Notes under the pieces: model-generated
Databases searched by the model: none
What the model saw: only the letters and a program-made list of their open reading frames with translations
What the model was told of the DNA's origin: nothing
Shown here: piece after piece, positions 18,201 through 33,791 of the stretch
Layout of the letters: every line of letters starts with the position of its first letter
Position numbering within the stretch: the first letter of the stretch is position 1
Assembly (NCBI RefSeq): GCF_900155545.1
Contig: NZ_LT732526.1
Coordinates: forward strand, 463,214 to 497,004
Reading direction: 5' to 3'
DNA length: 33,791 nt
Source: Clostridium sp. Marseille-P2415
Lineage (GTDB): Bacteria > Bacillota > Clostridia > Lachnospirales > Lachnospiraceae
Made by a program: the position numbers and the translations under genes

Positions 18201-18247
18201 TAGTGCCCAAAGAACATGGGCAGGAAAAAGGAAAACACAGAGAGGAA

Positions 18248-19978
18248 ATGACAGTGGCAGACAGAACATTTGGCTGGGTACAGGAGGCCTATACCCTGGG
18301 AAATTTAAAAAATGTAGTATCCGTGTTTGTGCCGGATTCAGAGATCAACCGGATCCTGCGCATGGATAAGATTCCCAGACTCATATCGGAAAAAGACGGA
18401 AGAGATGAGTTTATTCGGGAATTAAGCGGCAGGGAGATCTCCATCCCCTATACCCATTTGAAGGGAAAGGGGACACCTGCCGGATATACAAGGAGCAATG
18501 CCCCCTGTTCCGGGATTATCCAGGCAGTCCTGCCGGGACAGCGAAAGGAATACCAAAGTGACTGGCCCGCAGATTCCTTTCTGCGGTGGGCGGTCAGCAT
18601 CGGTTTTCTTCATTACGACCGGAAAGAGGATGTCTGTTCCCTGTCCGTACTGGGGCGCCGGTATGCGGATGCGCCCGCAGACAGCGAAGAGGAGGTTTTC
18701 GTATTAAAGACGGCATTCCTTTCCTATCCGCCCGTATGCAGAGTGCTGTCCCTGCTGGGAGAAGAAGGGCATTTGACAAAGTTTGAGATCGGGGCCAGGC
18801 TAGGTTTCATCGGCGAGGCCGGCTTCACTTCCATTCCCCAGTACATGATCCTGCAGGGGCTGTTGGAAGCGGAAACCCGGGAAGAAAAGACAAAGCTTCT
18901 TCAGGATACGGAAGGTACCAGTGATAAATACGTCCGGACCATTTGCAGCTGGCTCATACAGATGGGCTGGGTCAACAAGGTGCCAAAGGAGGTAACCGCT
19001 CATATAGGCTGTCAGACCTTTACCGGAACAATTCCCCAGTCCTATCAGCTGACGTTAAAGGGAAGGACCGTATTAAAGCACGTTACCGGTGTTTCAAAAT
19101 TCCCCAGGATTCCCAAACGGGTGATGTGGGATATGCTGGCTACCAAGGTGGCGGACCGGGAATATCTGCGCAACCGCAGGACCTATATCATAAAATATTT
19201 AGAGGGGGCCTACCGTTCCGCTTTGCAGGTAAAGGAATATTTAAAAGGTGTGGGTATGGAAGAGGAGGCGGAGACCATTCTCGATGACATCCGAAGCCTT
19301 GAAAATATTGGCCTTCATGTGAAAAAAGCCGGAAGCACTTATCGGATCATGGATGAAATAACCGGCCTTTTACTGCCTGCCGTAAACCATGGACCGGCGC
19401 CGGTGAAATCGGAAGTGTCTGTATGCAAGGATTATTTAAGATCCCGTTTGACCCACGTGGACCATAAGTATCTGCTCCTTTTGGATCTGGGGTACGACGG
19501 CACTTCGGACCGGGATTATGAGATACAGACTGCCGGGCTTTTGACAGATGAGCTGGATTTTAAGGGAGCCAGGCTTGGCGATACCAGAAAGCCGGATGTC
19601 TGCGTATACTATGGGGAAGACGGACTGATTCTTGATAATAAGGCTTATGGAAAGGGGTATTCCCTTCCGATCAAGCAGGCTGACGAGATGTACCGCTACA
19701 TAGAGGAAAATAAGGAACGCAATGAGATGCTAAATCCTAACAAATGGTGGGAGATCTTTGACAGGCGTGTGGTGCGCTATCATTTTGCTTTTGTTTCAGG
19801 AGCCTTTACAGGCGGATTTAAGGAGAGGCTTAATAATATCCGGATGCGTTCGGGAATCTGCGGAGCCGCAGTCAATTCCATGAACCTTCTTTTGATGGCG
19901 GAAGAACTGAAGTCCGGAAGACTGGGCTACAAAGAATGTTTTGCACTTTTTGACTGCAATGACGAGATTGTATTGTAA
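18248..19978 (+). CDS. FokI-like type IIS restriction endonuclease
   Basis: A 576-residue protein resembling R.FokI (about 580 residues) from end to end. The recognition part starts RTFGWVQ at residue 6 and contains SNAPCSGIIQA, FLRWAVSIGF, HLTKFEIGARLGF, GEAGFTS and RVMWDMLATK. The C-terminal cleavage domain has RKPD with D450, then LDNKAYGKGYSLP with D463 and K465, then QADEMYRYIEEN and NKWWEIF. These match FokI D450, D467 and K469, with a loop four residues shorter, so the nuclease looks intact. ATG 18248 gives an N-terminus as long as FokI's; GTG 18254 has better ribosome-site spacing, and GTG 18203 is unlikely. No methyltransferase is in the window, which is odd for an active enzyme. The stop is 30 bp before the Crp-like start. 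Confidence 0.88.
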   Translation: MTVADRTFGWVQEAYTLGNLKNVVSVFVPDSEINRILRMDKIPRLISEKDGRDEFIRELSGREISIPYTHLKGKGTPAGYTRSNAPCSGIIQAVLPGQRKEYQSDWPADSFLRWAVSIGFLHYDRKEDVCSLSVLGRRYADAPADSEEEVFVLKTAFLSYPPVCRVLSLLGEEGHLTKFEIGARLGFIGEAGFTSIPQYMILQGLLEAETREEKTKLLQDTEGTSDKYVRTICSWLIQMGWVNKVPKEVTAHIGCQTFTGTIPQSYQLTLKGRTVLKHVTGVSKFPRIPKRVMWDMLATKVADREYLRNRRTYIIKYLEGAYRSALQVKEYLKGVGMEEEAETILDDIRSLENIGLHVKKAGSTYRIMDEITGLLLPAVNHGPAPVKSEVSVCKDYLRSRLTHVDHKYLLLLDLGYDGTSDRDYEIQTAGLLTDELDFKGARLGDTRKPDVCVYYGEDGLILDNKAYGKGYSLPIKQADEMYRYIEENKERNEMLNPNKWWEIFDRRVVRYHFAFVSGAFTGGFKERLNNIRMRSGICGAAVNSMNLLLMAEELKSGRLGYKECFALFDCNDEIVL

Positions 19979-23818: not shown

Positions 23819-23847
23819 TTGACATCTAAAAAAGATGATATTATAAT
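23819..23847 (+). promoter_or_regulatory. Promoter of nitrogenase-like operon
   Basis: TTGACA (23819-23824), exactly 17 bp, TATAAT (23842-23847): a full-consensus sigma-A promoter, so basal initiation is expected to be strong and control must come from repression and attenuation. The spacer contains CATCT (23823-23827) and AGATG (23833-23837) in inverse, a possible operator; another imperfect inverted repeat (AAACCTAT at 23858, ATAGGGTTT at 23874) follows the start site. No -24/-12 sigma-54 promoter as used by nif genes is seen. Confidence 0.88.
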
Positions 23848-23904: not shown

Positions 23905-24021
23905 ATGAAAAACACGATGTTTTCTAACAGGGATAATGATTCTGCAAATTTTGAAAAGATGAATTGTTGTTGTAAAACTGTGTGCATGTGTATGAATACA
24001 GCTTATTTTTGTATGTATTAG
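23905..24021 (+). CDS. Cysteine-rich leader peptide of nitrogenase-like operon
   Basis: A 38-residue ORF with Cys at 21, 22, 23, 27, 29 and 36 (MNCCCKTVCMCM), all in the second half, and six Met. AAAGGA is upstream of the ATG. It occupies the leader between a consensus promoter and a very strong terminator, and its stop codon is 2 nt before the antiterminator strand. It is related in motif (MNCC) and position to the leader at 6298, which precedes an amino-acid transporter. The dense run of Cys codons just before the control structure indicates sensing of charged Cys-tRNA; Met codons may contribute. A functional metal-binding peptide is a less likely alternative. Confidence 0.75.
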   Translation: MKNTMFSNRDNDSANFEKMNCCCKTVCMCMNTAYFCMY

Positions 24022-24023
24022 AA

Positions 24024-24081
24024 TACCTGAATCCGTAGCAGAAGGAGTTTCGCAGGTACTATAATAGTACCTGTTTTTTTT
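24024..24081 (+). promoter_or_regulatory. Cysteine attenuator: antiterminator and terminator
   Basis: Terminator: CAGGTACT (24053-24060) pairs with AGTACCTG (24066-24073), a perfect 8-bp stem with a 5-nt loop followed by eight T. Alternative: TACCTG (24024-24029), immediately after the leader stop, is complementary to CAGGTA (24053-24058), the left half of the terminator. A ribosome ending the leader would cover TACCTG and let the terminator form; a ribosome stalled on Cys codons would leave it free to act as antiterminator. Confidence 0.8.
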
Positions 24082-24198
24082 ATAAACGGAAATAAATGAT
24101 AAAATCCATCAATAACGCCATTGGATCAATCCATACGGACAGGAAGATGCACGAAATACATAATGAGTACCTTAGCAGCGATTCCCAAGTGAGAGAAG

Positions 24199-24363
24199 GT
24201 GATTCATATATCCTATTCAAATGCTTCTTATCCTGAAAATGAATACATCAGGCTGATTCATGAAATGGCCGGTAACGTAAAGTATGGTTCCATAACCATT
24301 ACGATTCAGGATGGAAAAATAGTGCAGATCGAAAAAATAGAGAAAATCAGATTAAAGGACTGA
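24199..24363 (+). CDS. yezD: YezD-like small protein (DUF2292)
   Basis: A 54-residue protein whose C-terminal half (YGSITITIQDGKIVQIEKI, then EKIRL) matches the YezD/DUF2292 family: B. subtilis YezD, as I recall it, has YGSITIKIHNGQIVQID and TEKHRF. Function unknown; members are often found with sulfur assimilation genes of Firmicutes, which fits the cysteine attenuator just upstream. The start is uncertain: GTG 24199 is the first usual start codon after an in-frame stop, but the best ribosome site (AGAAGGTGAT, 24194-24203) is better spaced for a non-standard start at 24205-24210. First structural gene of the nitrogenase-like operon. Confidence 0.78.
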   Translation: MIHISYSNASYPENEYIRLIHEMAGNVKYGSITITIQDGKIVQIEKIEKIRLKD

Positions 24364-24452
24364 CTGGACAACCGGAGGTTCTGATAAGCAGCAATGCATA
24401 TCAGGCGAAGGTTGTCTTTTTTAATATCCTTATTTAAGAAAGCGAGATTGAG

Positions 24453-25325
24453 ATGGCAAATACATATCAAAACCTGCAAAAGTCACACCCGTGCTTTGGA
24501 GGAAATAAAAACAACGTGGGCCGGATCCATCTTCCGGTGAGTCCGGGCTGCAATATTTCCTGCAAGTTCTGCGACAGAAAGATCAATGATGATGAAGAAA
24601 GGCCCGGAGTAACCTCTAAGGTGCTCACTCCCTTGCAGGCATTGGAGGTGCTTGACAAAGCCCTTGCCCTTTGCCCGGAAATTACGGTAGCAGGCATTGC
24701 AGGGCCGGGCGATACCCTGGCCACGGATTATGCACTGGAAACCTTCCGGCTGGTAAAGGAGCATCATCCGGAACTGATCAAATGCATGAGCACCAACGGG
24801 CTCCTTCTCTATGAAAGGGCGGATGAGATCATTGAAATCGGAGTGGAATCCGTAACCGTTACGGTAAATGCGGTGGACCCTGAAATTGAAGCGAAGCTTA
24901 ACCGGTGGATCGTGTATCATGGGAATGTTTACGAAGGAGCCCGGGCGGCTGAAATCCTGATAGAAAACCAGTTAAAGGGCATTAAAAGAATTGCGGATGC
25001 AGGGATCACGGTTAAGGTAAATACCGTGCTGGTACCAAATATAAACGGAGAGCACATCGAGGATATTGCAAAGGCCGTAAAAGAGGCGGGCGCAAGCATA
25101 TACAACATCATCCCGTTAATCCCCCAGTCGGATCTTTCCGATGAAACAGCCCCGGTGTGCCGCGAGATCGACGAGGCCAGGACTGCGGCAGGAAAGTACA
25201 TCGATGTTTTCCGGCATTGCCAGCACTGCCGTGCGGATGCAGTTGGAATGCTAGGGGGAAAGGATTTCGGAGATATGATATACCAGAGAAGGATCGCAGG
25301 AAGCGATACCTTCTCCCATGGATAA
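24453..25325 (+). CDS. NifB-like radical SAM protein, minimal form
   Basis: A 290-residue radical SAM enzyme matching the catalytic core of NifB, which builds the carbide-containing 8Fe-9S precursor of nitrogenase cofactors. It has the N-terminal HPCF (H12, C14) near the first accessory cluster, the SAM-cluster motif CNISCKFC (C33, C37, C40), GIAGPGD, STNGL, NAVDPEI and LIENQLKGI, and the C-terminal RHCQHCRADAVGMLG that binds accessory clusters. The C-terminal NifX-like domain of many NifB proteins is absent, but a separate NifX-like gene follows 22 bp later. No strong ribosome site is evident before the ATG. It indicates that the operon makes its own complex iron-sulfur cofactor. Confidence 0.9.
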   Translation: MANTYQNLQKSHPCFGGNKNNVGRIHLPVSPGCNISCKFCDRKINDDEERPGVTSKVLTPLQALEVLDKALALCPEITVAGIAGPGDTLATDYALETFRLVKEHHPELIKCMSTNGLLLYERADEIIEIGVESVTVTVNAVDPEIEAKLNRWIVYHGNVYEGARAAEILIENQLKGIKRIADAGITVKVNTVLVPNINGEHIEDIAKAVKEAGASIYNIIPLIPQSDLSDETAPVCREIDEARTAAGKYIDVFRHCQHCRADAVGMLGGKDFGDMIYQRRIAGSDTFSHG

Positions 25326-25347
25326 AGAAAAAAGGATGTAAAACGGC

Positions 25348-25707
25348 ATGATTTATAAAATTGCAATTGCATCATCAGACGGAAAAGTAGTCAATCAGCA
25401 TTTCGGCAGAGCCGGGGTTTTTTATATTGTCAACGCTGACAGCGGGGATATGACCTTCATATATGAGGAAAGCCGCAAAACAGCCCCTGTGTGCAGCGGA
25501 CAGGAGCATGATGACGCACAGTTAAAAGCGCTGGCAGCCATGCTTAGAGATTGTGATTATGTCTTAGTCAGCCGGATCGGATATGGCGCGCGGGCCGCCT
25601 TGGAGCGGGATCACACAGAGGCGTTCGAATTGCCGGGGTATATTGAGGATTCCATTCGGAGACTTCTTTCTTACGTAGAGGTCCGGAATTTATTGAATGA
25701 AACATAG
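25348..25707 (+). CDS. NifX/NafY-like cofactor-binding protein
   Basis: A 119-residue protein with the dinitrogenase iron-molybdenum cofactor fold (NifX/NafY/NifB C-terminal family): KIAIASSDGKVVNQHFGRA at the N-terminus with the conserved HFG (18-20), and DYVLVSRIGYGARAALE near 70-87. Such proteins hold or carry the NifB product or cofactor between assembly proteins. Directly behind the NifB-like gene, whose missing C-terminal domain it resembles, so it may work with it in trans. Followed after 9 bp by the first NifD-like gene. Confidence 0.85.
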   Translation: MIYKIAIASSDGKVVNQHFGRAGVFYIVNADSGDMTFIYEESRKTAPVCSGQEHDDAQLKALAAMLRDCDYVLVSRIGYGARAALERDHTEAFELPGYIEDSIRRLLSYVEVRNLLNET

Positions 25708-25716
25708 AAAGGATAC

Positions 25717-27168
25717 ATGACCATGAGCGAAACATATTCAGGAATCAGGGAAAGCCGGCCAAACCGCTATAATGATCTGGGTTCCACCGGCAGCCGGGCA
25801 GAGGCGGATTTTAAGAAAGGCTGTTTAAAGAAGGCGGACCGGAGCTTTGCACAAGGACTGCAGTGCCAGCAGATCAACAGTATGGCAGCCTTAATGTCCC
25901 TGGAGGATTCTGTATTCATTGCCCATTCCCCTCAGGGCTGTGTGGGCTGTACCTCTCTGGCAGCAGACCAGTACCGGGTAGGGCAGGCGCACCGGGGGGT
26001 GAAGCACATTAAGAATCCGAGAATCATCGTGTCAAACCTGGATCAGAACAATGTGATCTTCGGAGGGGAAAATAAGCTTAGAAAAGCCGTTGAAGATGCG
26101 GTATCAAGGTACCAACCCAAGCTCATCTTTGTATTTGCCTCCTGTGCCTCCGGTATCATCGGAGACGACATTGACGCCATTGTAAAGGATCTGCAGGAAA
26201 ATATGGATGCACTCATTATTCCGGTCCACTGCGAAGGCTTCAAATCGAAAATCTGTGCTTCCGGTTTTGATGCGGCTTTTATTTCAATCAACAAATACAT
26301 ATTGAAAAAGCAGAAGCTTGAAAAGAAAGAAGGCCTGGTTAACTTATTTGCACCGGTTTCCATAAGCTATGCCGACCAGAAAGAAATGGAGCGGATGCTG
26401 TCCCTGCTGGGACTTTCCGTAAACTATATTCCTTTTTACAGTTCGCTGGAAAAAATAAAGCAGATCCCGGCAGCCCAGGCCTCGACTTCAATCTGTAAAG
26501 TGTTCGCAGATGAATTCATGAAAACGCTGTATGAGGATTATGACATTCCCTATTCCCATACGGTTATGCCCATCGGGGTGCGCAATACGGATATATGGTT
26601 CCGGGGAATCGCGGAGATTGCGGGAAAAGAAAAAGAAGCGGAAGAAATCATTCGGAGAGAGCATGAAAGGATCCTTCCTCTGGTCGGATCCATTAAGAAC
26701 CGGCTGAAGGGGAAACGGGTATTTATCTGCGGCGGAACCGGCCGTTCCTTTGCAGCCGCTGCGCTGATCGATGATTTCGGAATGGAGCTGGCAGGGCTTG
26801 AGACACCGACCTATGATGAAGACGCGCAAGCGGATATCGAGCATCTCAATACGATCCACCCAAATTATGTCATTGACATTGCAAACATGCAGCCCTTTGA
26901 ACAGGTGAATCTGGTGAAAAAGCTGAAACCGGACGTATTCATCGGAGTTCCGGAATGGGCGGCAAAGCTGGGGATACCGACTACCCATGTGCTGGATATG
27001 AAACGGCCTACCATGGGATATGACGGACTTTTGTTTCTCGGGAATAAAATTGTCGACCAGCTTGAGAATCCCGGTTTTAATGTGAAGCTGTCGCAGCATA
27101 TCAGACTGCCTTACAGGGACAGCTGGTACGAAGAAGATGCATTTAAATATATAACCGGAGGTGAATGA
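25717..27168 (+). CDS. NifD-like nitrogenase-family component 1 alpha subunit (pair 1)
   Basis: A 483-residue member of the nitrogenase component 1 superfamily. Probable cluster ligands at the subunit interface are C50, C75 (SPQGC) and C143 (ASCASGIIGDDID), matching NifD C62, C88 and C154; C78 is extra. Both ligands of the active-site cofactor have counterparts: C260 (TSIC, exactly 17 residues before IP, as in NifD C275) and H424 (THVLDM, 10 residues before GYDG, as NifD H442). The VHCEGFK stretch is shared with NifD, but the residues at NifD Q191 and H195, needed for N2 reduction, are C180 and F184. So it is probably a reductase with a NifB-type cofactor that does not fix nitrogen. ATG 25723 is an alternative start. 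Confidence 0.88.
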   Translation: MTMSETYSGIRESRPNRYNDLGSTGSRAEADFKKGCLKKADRSFAQGLQCQQINSMAALMSLEDSVFIAHSPQGCVGCTSLAADQYRVGQAHRGVKHIKNPRIIVSNLDQNNVIFGGENKLRKAVEDAVSRYQPKLIFVFASCASGIIGDDIDAIVKDLQENMDALIIPVHCEGFKSKICASGFDAAFISINKYILKKQKLEKKEGLVNLFAPVSISYADQKEMERMLSLLGLSVNYIPFYSSLEKIKQIPAAQASTSICKVFADEFMKTLYEDYDIPYSHTVMPIGVRNTDIWFRGIAEIAGKEKEAEEIIRREHERILPLVGSIKNRLKGKRVFICGGTGRSFAAAALIDDFGMELAGLETPTYDEDAQADIEHLNTIHPNYVIDIANMQPFEQVNLVKKLKPDVFIGVPEWAAKLGIPTTHVLDMKRPTMGYDGLLFLGNKIVDQLENPGFNVKLSQHIRLPYRDSWYEEDAFKYITGGE

Positions 27169-27169
27169 G

Positions 27170-29312
<2,143 letters not shown>

Positions 29313-29344
29313 GGCATGGGAATGCCGGAACAAGGAGGTTAAAC

Positions 29345-30808
29345 ATGGCGATTCATTTATCAAGTTCGAATCTGGCGACCAGAGAGAACCGGTTAGGTTC
29401 CATTACGGGATACGTTGGAGATTTGCATGATCTTGCATTACAGAGCAGGTGCGGAACTCTAAAAGGCTGCGGACGCTGTTTTTCCCAGTCGAGTTCCTGC
29501 CTTTCGGGATGTGCTCTCAGCCAGCTTGGCGGGATCCGGGATGTGGCGGTCATTCATCACGGTCCTTCCGGATGCTCAGCGACTGCAAGCTCTCAGTACA
29601 TTGTTACCAATCAGGTCGCGGCAAAAAGAGGGGTAGAAAATCATTCCGTTTATATTGGCACGGACATGAATGAGAATGATACCATTTTCGGCTCTGCGGA
29701 TGCGCTGGCAGATATCATTCTTGAAGTCAACCGGAGGTATCAGCCAAAGGCCATATTTGTCAGCAGCTCCTGTGCAACAGGGATCATCGGCGAGGATATA
29801 GACAGCGTTGTGGATGAAGTAAAAGACCAGATCCCGGTGCCTGTCATTGCCGTACACTGCGAGGGCTTTAAATCCCGCATCTGGGCAACCGGATTTGATA
29901 TATCCGACCACGCGGTTTTAAGCGGAATTGTAAAGCCGCCGAAGCAGAAGAGGAACACCATCAATTTTAAAAACTTCTATGAAAGCGCCAGAGGTGAGAT
30001 CATTGAAATATTTAAAAATTTTGATCTGGATCCGATTTTTTTATATGCCAACGCCACCGTAGAAGAACTGGAACGCCTGTCGGAATCCGTTGCCACAACG
30101 TGTATCTGCGGGACCCTGGGAAATTATCTTGGAAACGGCCTGGAGGAGCAATACGGCGTGCCTTATATCCGGACCATCAATCCGCTGGGGATCACCGGAT
30201 TTGAGACCTGGCTCCGTGAGATCGGAAGGGTGGCAGGAAAACTGCCCCAGGTAGAGAATTACATAGAAGAACAAAGAAAGATCTATATCCCCCGGATCGA
30301 AGAGGTCAAAAAGGAGCTAAAGGGACTTAAGGCGGTTCTGGGTATGGGGCCCGGATACACCTTTGAAGTGACCAGGGTATTAAATGAATTGGGGATCGAA
30401 GTGGTTTGGGCTCTTGCCTGGCATTATGATAAGAAATATGAAAACGGCGACGTGCCGCCTGCCATGAGCTATCTTCTTGATAACGGCATTAATTTTGAAA
30501 CCAGTGTATCAGACCAGCAGAATTTTGAGGTAATGAATATCTTAAACAAGTACCGGCCGGACTTATATCTTTCCAGGCATCCGGGCTCCACGGTATGGGC
30601 CATCAAGCAGGGAACGCCTGCGGTATTTGTGGCTGATGAATATATGATATTCGGTTACAGGCACACCCTGGAATTCGCTCATACGGTTTTAGATACCATA
30701 AGAAACAGAAGCTTTGGGCAGAATCTGGCAAAAAGGGTGAAACTTCCGTATACAGACTGGTGGTATAAACAGGATGTGGGAAGCTTCTTAGAGGAGGCAA
30801 TCATCTGA
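29345..30808 (+). CDS. NifD-like component 1 alpha subunit (pair 2)
   Basis: A 487-residue second alpha-like subunit. Cluster ligand candidates are C52, C77 (GPSGC) and C143 (SSSCATGIIGEDID). An extra N-terminal cysteine group, C36, C42 and C45 (with C56 just beyond), is not found in NifD and could bind another iron-sulfur cluster. C255 (in TCIC) corresponds to NifD C275, but there is no histidine at the H442 position: the region reads FVADEYMIFGYRH. NifD Q191 and H195 are replaced by W180 and F184. As in NifE, loss of the histidine suggests a scaffold role, or a different cofactor binding mode. AAGGAGG before the ATG. The 1-bp TGATG overlap with the next gene means coupled translation. Confidence 0.88.
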   Translation: MAIHLSSSNLATRENRLGSITGYVGDLHDLALQSRCGTLKGCGRCFSQSSSCLSGCALSQLGGIRDVAVIHHGPSGCSATASSQYIVTNQVAAKRGVENHSVYIGTDMNENDTIFGSADALADIILEVNRRYQPKAIFVSSSCATGIIGEDIDSVVDEVKDQIPVPVIAVHCEGFKSRIWATGFDISDHAVLSGIVKPPKQKRNTINFKNFYESARGEIIEIFKNFDLDPIFLYANATVEELERLSESVATTCICGTLGNYLGNGLEEQYGVPYIRTINPLGITGFETWLREIGRVAGKLPQVENYIEEQRKIYIPRIEEVKKELKGLKAVLGMGPGYTFEVTRVLNELGIEVVWALAWHYDKKYENGDVPPAMSYLLDNGINFETSVSDQQNFEVMNILNKYRPDLYLSRHPGSTVWAIKQGTPAVFVADEYMIFGYRHTLEFAHTVLDTIRNRSFGQNLAKRVKLPYTDWWYKQDVGSFLEEAII

Positions 30809-32106
30809 TGGCGAAAATATTAGATAAACAAAGATATAAATGTGCAATGAGTGCCATGCAGACCGTTCAGGCAATCGAACGGGCCATCCCCGTACTCCAT
30901 TCCGGGCCGGGATGTGCCCAGAAACTGTCTAATTCCTCCGGAAGCTCCGGCTATTTTTCTCCCAACATCTATCCGTGTACCAGCATCAATGAAAAGGATG
31001 TTGTTTTCGGCGGAGCACAGAAGCTTGAGTCTACCATCAAACATTCCCTGGAAGTCATTGACGCCGATTTATATGTGGTTTTGACCGGCTGCATCCCGGA
31101 GATTGTGGGCGACAATACCGGGGAAGTGGTAGAGGGGTTCCGGGATGCAAAAAAACCGGTGATCTATGCATCAACCGCAGGCTTTAAGGGCAATAACTAC
31201 AAAGGCCACGAGCAGGTGGTGGATGCGATCATTGACCAGCTTTTGGAGAAATCAGATATCCGGGTGAAAAATCTGGTCAATATATGGGCTGATGTGCCTT
31301 ATCAGGATGAATTCTGGCTCGGGAATTTAAGGGAGCTTGAAAAGCTGGTCACAGAGCTGGGGCTTACGCCAAACACCATATTCGGATATAAAAGAGGATT
31401 AAGTAACGTAAAGAGGATACCGACAGCCGAATTCAATCTTCTGGTATCCCCCTGGGTCGGGCTTAACAATATGAAGAAAATGGAGCAGAAGCTTGGGATC
31501 CCTTATCTTCACTATCCGACCCTTCCCATCGGTGCCTTTGAAACCAGTAAATTCCTTCGGGAAGTGGGCGGATTTGCCGGAGTACCAAAGGAGAAAATTG
31601 AAAAGCTCATTGCTGAGAAGGAAGCCTATTACTACTATTATATCGAGCGCTATGCGGATCTGTTCCTGGAGACCAGAGTCATGTCAAAGCAGTTTACGGT
31701 AGTGTCCGATGCCCAGTATGCCCTCGGCATTACCAAGTTTCTGGTCAATGATCTGGGCTTGTTTCCCGCAAAGCAGTTTGTGGTGGATGATACGCCGAGA
31801 GAATTCCGGGATGCGGTCCGGTCCTGTTTTAAAGAACTGAATTTTGGGATAGAAGCAGAGGTGAGCTTTGAGACCGATGGCTATAAGATCCACAATGAGA
31901 TCAGAGCCCATGATTATCACGGATACCCGCTGATCCTCGGAGGCTATTGGGAAAAAGAGGCGGCAAAGCAGACCGATGCCCATTTCCTTAATGTATCCTG
32001 GCCGGTGAATGAAAGGCTGGTCATGAACAGCTATTATGCAGGATATGACGGAGGCCTTAAACTGATCGAAGATATCTATTCGGTCGCCAAAACAAGATTT
32101 AATTAA
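30808..32106 (+). CDS. NifK-like component 1 beta subunit (pair 2)
   Basis: A 432-residue beta-like subunit that should pair with the preceding protein. Cluster ligand candidates are C12, C36 (SGPGC) and C95 (LTGCIPEIVGDN), the last with PEIVGDN as in NifK/NifN. It shares KDVVFGGAQKLESTI and NERLVMNSYYAGYDGGLKLIED with its pair 1 homologue, so the two pairs probably arose by duplication. It lacks the long N-terminal extension of NifK. GAGGAGG lies within the end of the upstream gene. NifN-like or catalytic role not decided. Confidence 0.87.
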   Translation: MAKILDKQRYKCAMSAMQTVQAIERAIPVLHSGPGCAQKLSNSSGSSGYFSPNIYPCTSINEKDVVFGGAQKLESTIKHSLEVIDADLYVVLTGCIPEIVGDNTGEVVEGFRDAKKPVIYASTAGFKGNNYKGHEQVVDAIIDQLLEKSDIRVKNLVNIWADVPYQDEFWLGNLRELEKLVTELGLTPNTIFGYKRGLSNVKRIPTAEFNLLVSPWVGLNNMKKMEQKLGIPYLHYPTLPIGAFETSKFLREVGGFAGVPKEKIEKLIAEKEAYYYYYIERYADLFLETRVMSKQFTVVSDAQYALGITKFLVNDLGLFPAKQFVVDDTPREFRDAVRSCFKELNFGIEAEVSFETDGYKIHNEIRAHDYHGYPLILGGYWEKEAAKQTDAHFLNVSWPVNERLVMNSYYAGYDGGLKLIEDIYSVAKTRFN

Positions 32107-32133
32107 CAGATCCGTTTTAAGGAAGGGAGTATC

Positions 32134-32550
32134 ATGTCATATAAAATTGCAGTTGCATCTTCTGACCGGATAAACATTGATGGGAATTTTGGAGCGGCCC
32201 ATGAATTTCTGGTCTATGAAGTGGCGGAGAGCGGGAAGTATGTTTTTTTAGAAATAAGAAAAACCCCGGAAGAAGTAAAAGAGCCTTCCGCATGTAAGGA
32301 CGGGTGTGCAGGAAGCGGCTGCGGCGGTTTAAAGGGAAATCATCCCAATGTGGAGGCCATAGCAGACTGCCGGTGCGTGATCTGTAAAAAAATCGGTTTC
32401 CACATTCAAAAACAGCTTGAGAAAAAAGCGATCAGTGCCTTTGATGTGGAAGGGGAAATGGAAGATGCATTGCAGAAAATCACATTGTATTTCCACCGGG
32501 TGGATCACCACCAGACACTTAGAAGAATCTCAAATGAAACGTTGAAATGA
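32134..32550 (+). CDS. NifX-like protein with cysteine-rich insert
   Basis: A 138-residue second member of the NifX/NafY fold: YKIAVASSDRINIDGNFGAAHEF at the N-terminus (shortened) with NFG in place of HFG. Between the two halves is an insert CKDGCAGSGCGG (C54, C58, C63), and CRCVIC (C79, C81, C84) follows; six Cys in 31 residues suggest a bound iron-sulfur cluster or metal. A cofactor or cluster carrier is the likely role, perhaps dedicated to pair 2. GGAAGGGAG precedes the ATG. Its stop overlaps an in-frame ATG of the next reading frame (32547), but the lipoprotein gene more likely starts at 32568. Confidence 0.82.
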   Translation: MSYKIAVASSDRINIDGNFGAAHEFLVYEVAESGKYVFLEIRKTPEEVKEPSACKDGCAGSGCGGLKGNHPNVEAIADCRCVICKKIGFHIQKQLEKKAISAFDVEGEMEDALQKITLYFHRVDHHQTLRRISNETLK

Positions 32551-32567
32551 AAGGCTGGGAGAAAATT

Positions 32568-33395
32568 ATGAAAAAATCGGCAAAAAAGTTAGCTTTGGCA
32601 GCAGTTCTGGCAGCACTGGGAGCAGCAATGCTGTCCGGATGCGGAAAAAAGACAGCGGCAGCAGACAGCGGCGTTACAAAAGTGGTAGTAGGAACCGGTA
32701 ACGCCTATGAGCCCTATTGCTTCCTGGATGAAAAAGGAAATCTTGCCGGGTATGAATACGAGGTTTTAAAAGCAGTGGATGAACTGCTTCCCCAGTATGA
32801 ATTTGAATATCATACCTCTGATTTTGCCAATGTACTGATTTCCCTCGATGCAGGTAAGATTGATATTGCAGCGCACCAGTATGAATGGAACGAGGAGAGA
32901 GGGGAAAAGTATCTGTTTGGAAAAGAACCGTATACCACCTATGTGACCTATCTCGCCGTAGCAAGCGGCCGGACGGATATTCAGTCTCTTAATGACTTAC
33001 AGGGGCGGAAAGTAAAGAGCTCCGCCGGATCAAATTCCGTTTATATCCTGGAAAATTACAATAAGGAACATCCGGATAACCCCATCAATATTGATTATGT
33101 GAACAATTCGACCGATGAAGAAACCATTACCGGAATCTTAAACGGAGTCTGGGATGCAACCATCCTGACAAAGCGGGATACGGAAAAACTGAATAAAAAC
33201 TACGGAGACGGCGGGGAAGTCATAAAGGTGACGGGAGAACCGGTCCAGTCTTCTTCCACGTTTTTTGTCTTTGCAAAAGGAAATACCGAATTGCAGGAGG
33301 CAGTGGACGGAGCGGTAAAACAATTAAAAGAAAGCGGAAAGCTTGCACAGATATCCACGGATATAATCGGCGGAGATTATACGGAAAGTGAGTAA
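32568..33395 (+). CDS. Amino-acid type ABC substrate-binding lipoprotein
   Basis: A 275-residue family 3 binding protein. The signal peptide ends in lipobox MLSGC with the lipid-modified Cys at about 24; the binding domain starts near 38 (TKVVVGTGNAYEPYCFLDE). The segment AAHQYEWNEERGEKYLFGKEPY resembles (in part) TcyJ/TcyK and YxeM proteins of Bacillus, which bind cystine and related sulfur amino acids. I choose ATG 32568 because it gives a normal signal peptide and has GGGAG upstream; ATG 32547 would add seven residues. Placed at the end of the nitrogenase-like operon, it probably captures the substrate of that enzyme, or its sulfur product. Confidence 0.87.
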   Translation: MKKSAKKLALAAVLAALGAAMLSGCGKKTAAADSGVTKVVVGTGNAYEPYCFLDEKGNLAGYEYEVLKAVDELLPQYEFEYHTSDFANVLISLDAGKIDIAAHQYEWNEERGEKYLFGKEPYTTYVTYLAVASGRTDIQSLNDLQGRKVKSSAGSNSVYILENYNKEHPDNPINIDYVNNSTDEETITGILNGVWDATILTKRDTEKLNKNYGDGGEVIKVTGEPVQSSSTFFVFAKGNTELQEAVDGAVKQLKESGKLAQISTDIIGGDYTESE

Positions 33396-33400
33396 TTGGT

Positions 33401-33791
33401 ATGGATAAACTGTTTGGCTGGGAGCGGTTTTTTGAAAATATCCCTAAAATTCTTCCATATTTATCAGTGACCTTTTCGATTGTGGTTTATGCTACCGGAT
33501 TCGGAGTGCTTCTTGCCATTTTGATCGTTCTGGTACAGATCAAAAAAATTCCGGTACTGTATCCGTTTTTTAAGGTGTATGTCTCATTTATGAGAGGTAC
33601 ACCGATGCTGGTACAGTTGATGCTCATTTATTACGGCATACCGGCCCTGATTGATCCTGTTTTCGGCACCAATATAAACCGTGGCTGGAGTACGGTGACT
33701 TTTGCTTATATCACCTTTATTCTCAATCAGGGAGCATTTCTTTCGGCCATATTCTACAGTGCGGTCACATCGATCCCCTATGGGCAGACAG
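33401..33791 (+). CDS. Amino-acid type ABC permease (partial, runs off window)
   Basis: The first 130 residues of a HisM/GlnP-type permease, beginning MDKLFGWERFFENIPKI. Membrane segments at about 20-45 and 65-80 and the family hallmark YVSFMRGTPMLVQLMLIYYG (shortened, about 60-80) are present; the sequence ends in the EAA loop. It follows the binding protein by 5 bp and is part of the same operon. The TcyL/YxeN-like character supports uptake of a sulfur-containing amino acid or derivative. An ATPase and a second permease are expected beyond the edge. Confidence 0.85.
   Translation, partial: MDKLFGWERFFENIPKILPYLSVTFSIVVYATGFGVLLAILIVLVQIKKIPVLYPFFKVYVSFMRGTPMLVQLMLIYYGIPALIDPVFGTNINRGWSTVTFAYITFILNQGAFLSAIFYSAVTSIPYGQT

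Follow-up and report, generated by a model that had tools for sequence, protein, structure and literature searches.

The window analysed here is a stretch of 33,791 nucleotides from Clostridium sp. Marseille-P2415 (G000:C9:463214-497004, in a 5.2 Mb genome), and it carries a nitrogenase-like operon. On one strand the order is leader, terminator, yezD, nifB, X1, D1, K1, H, D2, K2, X2 and a TcyKLMN-type importer, where D and K denote nitrogenase-like alpha and beta subunits, H a NifH-type reductase and X NifX-like proteins. Open reading frame (ORF) and profile searches placed every gene of this co-directional operon where an earlier note on the same DNA had put it. Judged from its sequence, the operon is real, well conserved and linked to sulfur; one half, D2K2, is of the methylthio-alkane reductase (Mar) type, and the other half, D1K1, belongs to a separate clade that is apparently uncharacterised. 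The genome has nine PF00148 matches: four in this operon, four in a separate nif operon on C8 that looks complete (H, I1, I2, D, K, E, N-B and others, names assigned from ORFs) and one in a repeated piece described below. All features of the operon given by window coordinates lie on the + strand.

The cysteine-rich leader and its terminator

Twelve Lacrimispora operons were compared, with the upstream side in view in 11 (it is cut in L041). A sigma-A-type promoter (TTGACA-17-TATAAT, 23819..23847) kept its hexamers and 17-base spacer in all 11 loci. It is followed by a leader peptide of 38 amino acids with six Cys and a CCC core (23905..24021, MKNTMFSNRDNDSANFEKMNCCCKTVCMCMNTAYFCMY). This leader was kept in 11/11 loci, with 34-39 amino acids and 5-6 Cys (an inner ATG was used as the start in three), and its three core columns were Cys in 10, 10 and 11 of the 11. 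Both TGT and TGC were in use at three of the six Cys columns. The regulatory codons were conserved across species, as is expected of a leader-peptide attenuator.

An intrinsic terminator (24053..24081), consisting of the stem CAGGTACTAT/ATAGTACCTG at 24053-24073 and a U8 tract, was found in 10 of the 11 loci, where the U-run ended 56-60 bases past the leader stop. The stretch 24020-24082 folded at -15.9 kcal/mol (z -2.62), with 3 of 200 shuffles as good. A candidate antiterminator (24024..24058) would be formed by TACCTG (24024-24029), which sits two bases after the leader stop, and CAGGTA (24053-24058), the 5' part of the terminator. In all 10 loci with a terminator, CCTG stood at bases 5-8 past the stop and was able to pair with the terminator CAGG, a count of pairing potential only. 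An Rfam search of the leader gave weak matches only (E 0.46 and 2), and one of the window gave no match above threshold.

Leader-peptide attenuators, such as those of the trp, his and leu operons, combine a short ORF in which the regulating amino acid is repeated, hairpins that compete with one another and a U-run terminator. The present leader shares the ORF and the terminator and, as proposed, the competing hairpins; it differs in that its presumed signal is cysteine and the genes downstream are nitrogenase-like. The cysteine attenuator layout claimed in the earlier note found support, and the geometry, as read from the alignments, is that of leader-peptide attenuation. The operon is probably switched on when cysteine is short. 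Scarce Cys-tRNA would stall the ribosome at the leader Cys codons, so that TACCTG could pair with the terminator's 5' arm and transcription would continue; with ample cysteine, a ribosome at the leader stop would cover TACCTG and the terminator would form.

Two DK pairs and their probable shared parts

The second pair, D2 (29345..30808) and K2 (30808..32106), was assigned by structure-chain search, alignment and tree. Among solved chains, D2 was matched best by MarD with 302 bits, NifD following as the next family with 112, and K2 by MarK (385 bits; next family 69), with identities to the Rhodospirillum rubrum Mar proteins of 33% for D2 and 42% for K2. Position numbers and roles of MarD residues were taken from the accessible text of PMC12552129, which proposes Arg428-His429 in loop I as the Mar hallmark. 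When D2 was aligned to MarD with MAFFT, Cys at 66, 91, 158 and 270, Gln74, Trp195, Phe199, His375 and Arg428-His429 were all matched. Four of the six Mar pocket residues (Cys73, Gln74, His194, Trp195, Phe199, His375) were kept, 73 being Ser and 194 Ile, and D2K2 has all six P-cluster Cys as well as the cofactor Cys270.

A tree was built from 54 D-type sequences under LG+C20; L140 was dropped beforehand and VnfDG was trimmed to its first 480 residues. D2 and R. rubrum MarD fell in one clade of 21 rows with support of 100/100, in separate subclades, and the Arg-His pair was kept in 20 of these rows. By its hallmark residues and this placement, D2K2 is of the Mar type. The claim that the operon is separate from Mar therefore failed for D2K2 and held for D1K1 only.

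D1 (25717..27168) was placed by alignment, tree and structural matches, and its beta partner K1 (27161..28435), whose best solved relative was MarK (226 bits), has three P-cluster Cys and adjoined D1 in 80/80 loci by tblastn. Together with D3, the alpha subunit of a third pair, D1 formed a clade (100/100) outside the Mar clade, its join to Mar being supported by only 83/46. D1 keeps all P-cluster Cys and the Cys275 equivalent, has gaps at both positions of the Mar Arg428-His429, and carries His424, which was invariant in 9/9 D1/D3 sequences and lies two columns from NifD His442. The third pair, D3K3, was found in G008 and G019 with its own importer and without its own H or NifB; in G019 it abuts the main operon. 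L037:4912-10216 and L041:4781-10763 hold a third DK pair, about 49% identical to D1, that is accompanied by an ABC importer but by no separate H or NifB.

The sole H of the operon (28464..29312) scored 457.6 bits with TIGR01287, above the cut-off. Against solved chains it reached 457 bits with 1cp2, which we take to be Clostridium pasteurianum NifH, and 290 with MarH. It was 73% identical to the genome's own NifH, and H proteins of about 52% identity occurred in other clostridial loci and in Chlorohelix. A MarH-type reductase partner for D2K2 was therefore not found, and since H is of the NifH type, the Mar-type label is limited to the DK pair and does not extend to the whole system. The operon thus looks like a chimera of a Mar-type DK and a NifH-type H. 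The maturase is a minimal NifB/MarB-type radical S-adenosylmethionine (SAM) protein (24453..25325) that matched TIGR01290 over residues 9-269 with 285.6 bits; this is under the cut-off of 343.65, in a model that covers in addition a NifX-like part, encoded here by a gene of its own. The protein was 42% identical to the NifB portion encoded in the nif operon elsewhere in the genome.

A scan of genome contigs found 249 D1 relatives, and the best 80 (75-91% identical to D1) were analysed as 80 loci. All of these 80 were clostridial by name, and many came from ruminant or gut samples. The parts of the arrangement are not peculiar to this organism: D1K1 (at least 75%) was present in at least 80 clostridial records. 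Among D1-like protein clusters, the 120 best listed were at least 79% identical, and 805 passed 1e-10, a number that may include other family members. Twenty genomes were selected from the 80 loci, NifB being in view in some of them; 19 proved to have NifB and 18 a D2 (at least 75%). Among 25 genomes of the genus, D1 (at least 89%) was found in eight and D2 in 12, including all eight with D1; D2K2 occurred without D1K1 in the Lacrimispora genomes G006, G018 and G020. In 346 genomes of the family, D2 (at least 65%) was found in 21 and D1 (at least 70%) in 13. D2 accompanied D1 in 12 of the 13 D1 genomes and was a fragment in the other; among the 21 D2 genomes, 12 had D1, one a D1 fragment, and in eight no D1 was found. 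D2K2 therefore needs no D1K1, and D1K1 comes nearly always with the shared parts. Strict nesting of D1 in D2 genomes is contradicted by G578, which has a 46% D1 relative and no D2, and by G436, a D1 genome in which no NifB or D2 ortholog was found. D1K1 is a separate clade and belongs to a widespread, apparently uncharacterised branch of the nitrogenase family.

A further observation concerns other D proteins. Several clostridial genomes (L154-L156, L157, L159-L162; G358, G126, G070, G182, G214) each encode three or four nitrogenase-like D, and these include a 14-sequence clade that keeps Mar His429 and not Arg428.

Sulfur context and proposed function

The sulfur link proposed in the earlier note found support in the neighbouring genes as well as in the leader. 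A cysK-like gene lay between H and D2 in seven of the 12 Lacrimispora operons, one copy being cut short. The copy in L040 reached 322.7 bits against the cysteine synthase model, whose cut-off is 344.15, and the genome's three other cysK-like genes were at most 52% identical to the operon-type copy. SulP was encoded upstream in 10/11 Lacrimispora loci, preceded in seven of the 10 by a Crp-type regulator (window, L035, L039, L040, L042, L043 and L044). Across the 80 loci with D1, a CysK-like ORF (at least 35%) was found within three genes of the nitrogenase-like genes in 34, a raw count without a background rate from loci of which many are on short contigs. The neighbours included CysE-, IscS-, IscU-, MetC-, MalY- and Rrf2-like proteins (labels assigned by hand).

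In nine of the 26 loci with NifB in view, a tRNA-Cys(GCA) gene stood before nifB; all nine lie outside Lacrimispora (L085:1599-1668, L106:3484-3553, L107:2965-3035, L108:2965-3035, L111:132-202, L112:2622-2691, L113:2662-2731, L114:3690-3760 and L116:2598-2667). The distance to nifB was 30-86 bases in seven, and in two the listed nifB ORF starts upstream of the tRNA. These genes lack an encoded CCA, and the two that were scored reached 38-39 bits with the Rfam tRNA model. Such a tRNA-Cys in the operon may tie it to cysteine supply. A literature search found no paper joining tRNACys, operon, nitrogenase and sulfur, and the accessible text of PMC8762117, on cysteine coding, makes no mention of nitrogenase. 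Another tRNA-Cys(GCA) gene was seen in a Lacrimispora genome just before a second TcyKLM-like importer (L036:2086-2158).

The importer begins with a TcyK/YtmK-type substrate-binding lipoprotein (32547..33395), identified by profile and solved-chain matches, whose nearest solved chains were Lmo2349 and YtmK. The best matches of the permeases and the ATPase were cystine-transporter models, all below the NCBIfam cut-offs. The importer is thus of the TcyK type, as had been noted, and resembles TcyKLMN (YtmKLMN) importers in both respects; it differs in these sub-threshold scores.

It is quite likely that this is a cysteine-attenuated operon for anaerobic sulfur scavenging. NifB would build an [Fe8S9C] cluster, and the one NifH-type protein would supply electrons both to DK2, of the Mar type, and to DK1, whose separate clade has an altered cofactor pocket. 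By each DK, a small organosulfur compound taken up through the importer would be cleaved reductively at a C-S bond, and the released sulfide or thiol would enter cysteine via cysteine synthase. The two nitrogenase relatives would, most likely, extract sulfur from organic compounds rather than fix nitrogen. A two-step route, in which DK2 makes methanethiol and DK1 demethylates it, lost weight, since the DK2-only operon L040 has cysK and the Cys leader as well.

Several observations weigh against the scavenging reading. The window operon and four others of the 12 in Lacrimispora lack cysK. Apparent sulfate uptake and activation genes lie about 11 kb before the window (a match to the 3'-phosphoadenosine-5'-phosphosulfate reductase family; ORF labels assigned by hand, one stretch N), so that the operon would be a supplement. 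The arrangement of leader and terminator is lost in the Lacrimispora locus L038, where the leader is shortened and no terminator stands behind it, and a scan for a Cys leader with terminator across the 80 loci found it only in L045, L047 and L048, all Lacrimispora; two further rows of the scan were rejected as the end of another protein. L170, a member of the Mar clade, has Arg-Ala and so lacks the hallmark His. The chemistry of D1 may also differ from that of Mar, because D1 is without the Arg-His pair.

A broader scheme is possible and is put forward tentatively. One NifB and one NifH-type H would form a modular clostridial platform serving exchangeable pairs DK1, DK2 and, in some, DK3, each with its own organosulfur compound. 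DK1 would be a new class, a widespread rumen and gut C-S reductase with [Fe8S9C] held by Cys and a relocated His, unlike Mar and nitrogenase. Cysteine would feed back directly by leader attenuation; in other genera DK1 would instead have a tRNA-Cys gene beside it in the operon.

A true nitrogenase was rejected, in keeping with the earlier note: the nitrogenase cofactor residues Gln191 and His195 are not kept, their equivalents being W and F in D2 and C and F in D1, and six Nif, Vnf and NifE rows grouped apart (100/100) in the 54-row tree, which included no Anf row. We consider the least probable alternative to be a group IV-A enzyme of the Nfa type that is able to reduce N2 to some extent. In its favour, the Cys275 equivalent is kept in D1, a D1 His lies close to the His442 column, and Nfa of Endomicrobium proavitum is said, in the accessible text of PMC9147875, to have ligands for N2 reduction. 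The replacements at Gln191 and His195 nevertheless speak against it, in a comparison that included no Nfa sequence, as do the lack of NifE, NifN and NifV genes in the operon, the full-looking nif operon elsewhere in the genome, and the sulfur genes and Cys leader around the DK pairs. An isethionate or other sulfonate reductase of the Isr type, releasing sulfite, is very unlikely and was also rejected. The available part of PMC11423573 describes Isr as a group IV sulfur-assimilation enzyme said to occur in intestinal bacteria, and SsuABC-like importers (labels assigned by hand) stand near some D1K1 modules. By such partial published descriptions, through which alone Isr entered the comparison, IsrD has only one of the three P-cluster Cys left and no counterpart of Cys275, whereas D1 and D2 keep all, and IsrB is NifB-like only in its radical SAM motif, whereas the operon NifB matches the NifB model along its length. 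The operon importer, moreover, is of the cystine type and not Ssu.

It is unlikely, though less so, that D1K1 is a NifEN-like scaffold that finishes the cofactor for D2K2 and is not itself a reductase. D1 favours the NifE model (171.8 bits) over NifD (150), and NifE was the second-best solved family of K1 (102 bits); this tilt says little because D2 and K2 share it, and the best structural match of D1 among the matches listed was MarD, not NifE. The company that D2 keeps with D1 in 12/13 family genomes (a fragment in the 13th), together with the 9/21 D2 genomes without a D1 of useful length (one has a fragment), would suit a scaffold. Yet D2K2 stands without D1K1 in the three Lacrimispora genomes named above and in eight of the 21 sampled D2 genomes, and NifB was out of view in 16 of the 35 D1K1 loci with 8 kb on both sides, D1K1 sometimes standing beside another importer. 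The R. rubrum enzyme, furthermore, was obtained in active form when MarB, H, D and K were produced in a foreign host, whose own nif assembly genes may have been present (PMC12552129, accessible text).

With R. rubrum MarBHDK (PDB 9FMG, 9D9U) the operon shares the clade of D2K2, the P-cluster Cys, the cofactor Cys, Arg-His and the Trp/Phe/His of the pocket, as well as a NifB-type maturase and, probably, a sulfur role. It differs in its second DK pair, NifH-type reductase, NifX-like genes, importer and Cys leader, and in the cysK of its relatives, R. rubrum being described as making methionine in the text available of PMC9147875. IsrBHDK of Rhodobacter capsulatus likewise belongs to group IV, assimilates organic sulfur anaerobically and has its own importer; as far as described in PMC11423573, it lacks the P-cluster and cofactor ligands kept in D1 and D2, its IsrB is not NifB-like and its importer is Ssu. 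Sulfur genes such as cysK also lie close to the clostridial MarHDK-like genes of group IV-A that are found near mlp clusters (PMC10418091), and for Heliophilum NflDK1-5 several DK copies with one H proposed for more than one DK are described (PMC9147875); no Cys attenuator or two-pair operon is described in the accessible parts of these two papers. Sulfur-linked clostridial group IV genes and multiple DK with a proposed shared H were thus already in print. No paper on a Cys-attenuated or two-pair nitrogenase-like operon was found in a literature search whose coverage left out most subscription papers. In a termite spirochete, nifDK-like genes are described as sharing an operon with a cysteine synthase gene (PMC13067680), and an L-cluster common to Mar and NifEN is also described (PMC13245594). 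A Treponema saccharophilum plasmid has a similar layout to that in Lacrimispora, with O-acetylhomoserine sulfhydrylase, cysK, radical SAM, NifX-like and H genes, followed by two DK pairs that flank an ABC importer; the two D of this plasmid were placed in the Mar clade.

If the scavenging reading is correct, a large uncharacterised clostridial branch of the nitrogenase superfamily, with many members from ruminants and guts, obtains sulfur by breaking down organic compounds and may give off small hydrocarbons in doing so. One could then compare how shifting a single His ligand adapts one and the same iron-sulfur cluster to C-S or to N2 chemistry. Counts of nifH, nifD and nifB in gut or rumen metagenomes need not indicate nitrogen fixation; for nifH this is because the operon H passes the NifH equivalog cut-off.

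Other features of the locus

Between the terminator and nifB lies a yezD-like gene (24199..24363, GTG start tentative), which matched DUF2292 (Pfam PF10055) with 57.8 bits against a cut-off of 22 and was the genome's one such match. A second hairpin with a U tract (24366..24422) starts close to the yezD stop (CTGACTGG) and lies between yezD and nifB. In Lacrimispora it was whole in eight of 11 loci, cut off in two and out of view in one, and a similar hairpin also followed yezD in L085 and L106; it is perhaps a second attenuator. The NifX-like proteins X1 (25348..25707) and X2 (32134..32550) matched Pfam PF02579 with 64.8 and 46.2 bits, respectively.

The operon does not end at 33791, where the earlier note had closed it. 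The TcyL-type permease (33401..33791) is cut by the window end, and tcyL, tcyM and tcyN are complete at G000:C9:499113-501290. Just beyond the window, at about G000:C9 497005, two scaffold pieces are joined at an N, and past this join the end of K2, X2, the substrate-binding protein and tcyL reappear in near-identical form over about 2.5 kb. Because of the N at the join and the near-identity of the copies, a true duplication of the operon end was rejected, and the repeat is most likely an assembly overlap.

After the importer, L033:1029-3231 and similar ORFs in several other Lacrimispora loci encode a GldA-like alcohol dehydrogenase and a HisC-like pyridoxal phosphate enzyme; as a guess, the GldA-like enzyme might act as a methylthioacetaldehyde reductase that feeds Mar. 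Window positions 18203-19978, upstream of the genes for the Crp-type regulator and SulP, encode a protein with all four FokI domains (Pfam), and apparently similar sequences occupy the same place in other Lacrimispora loci.

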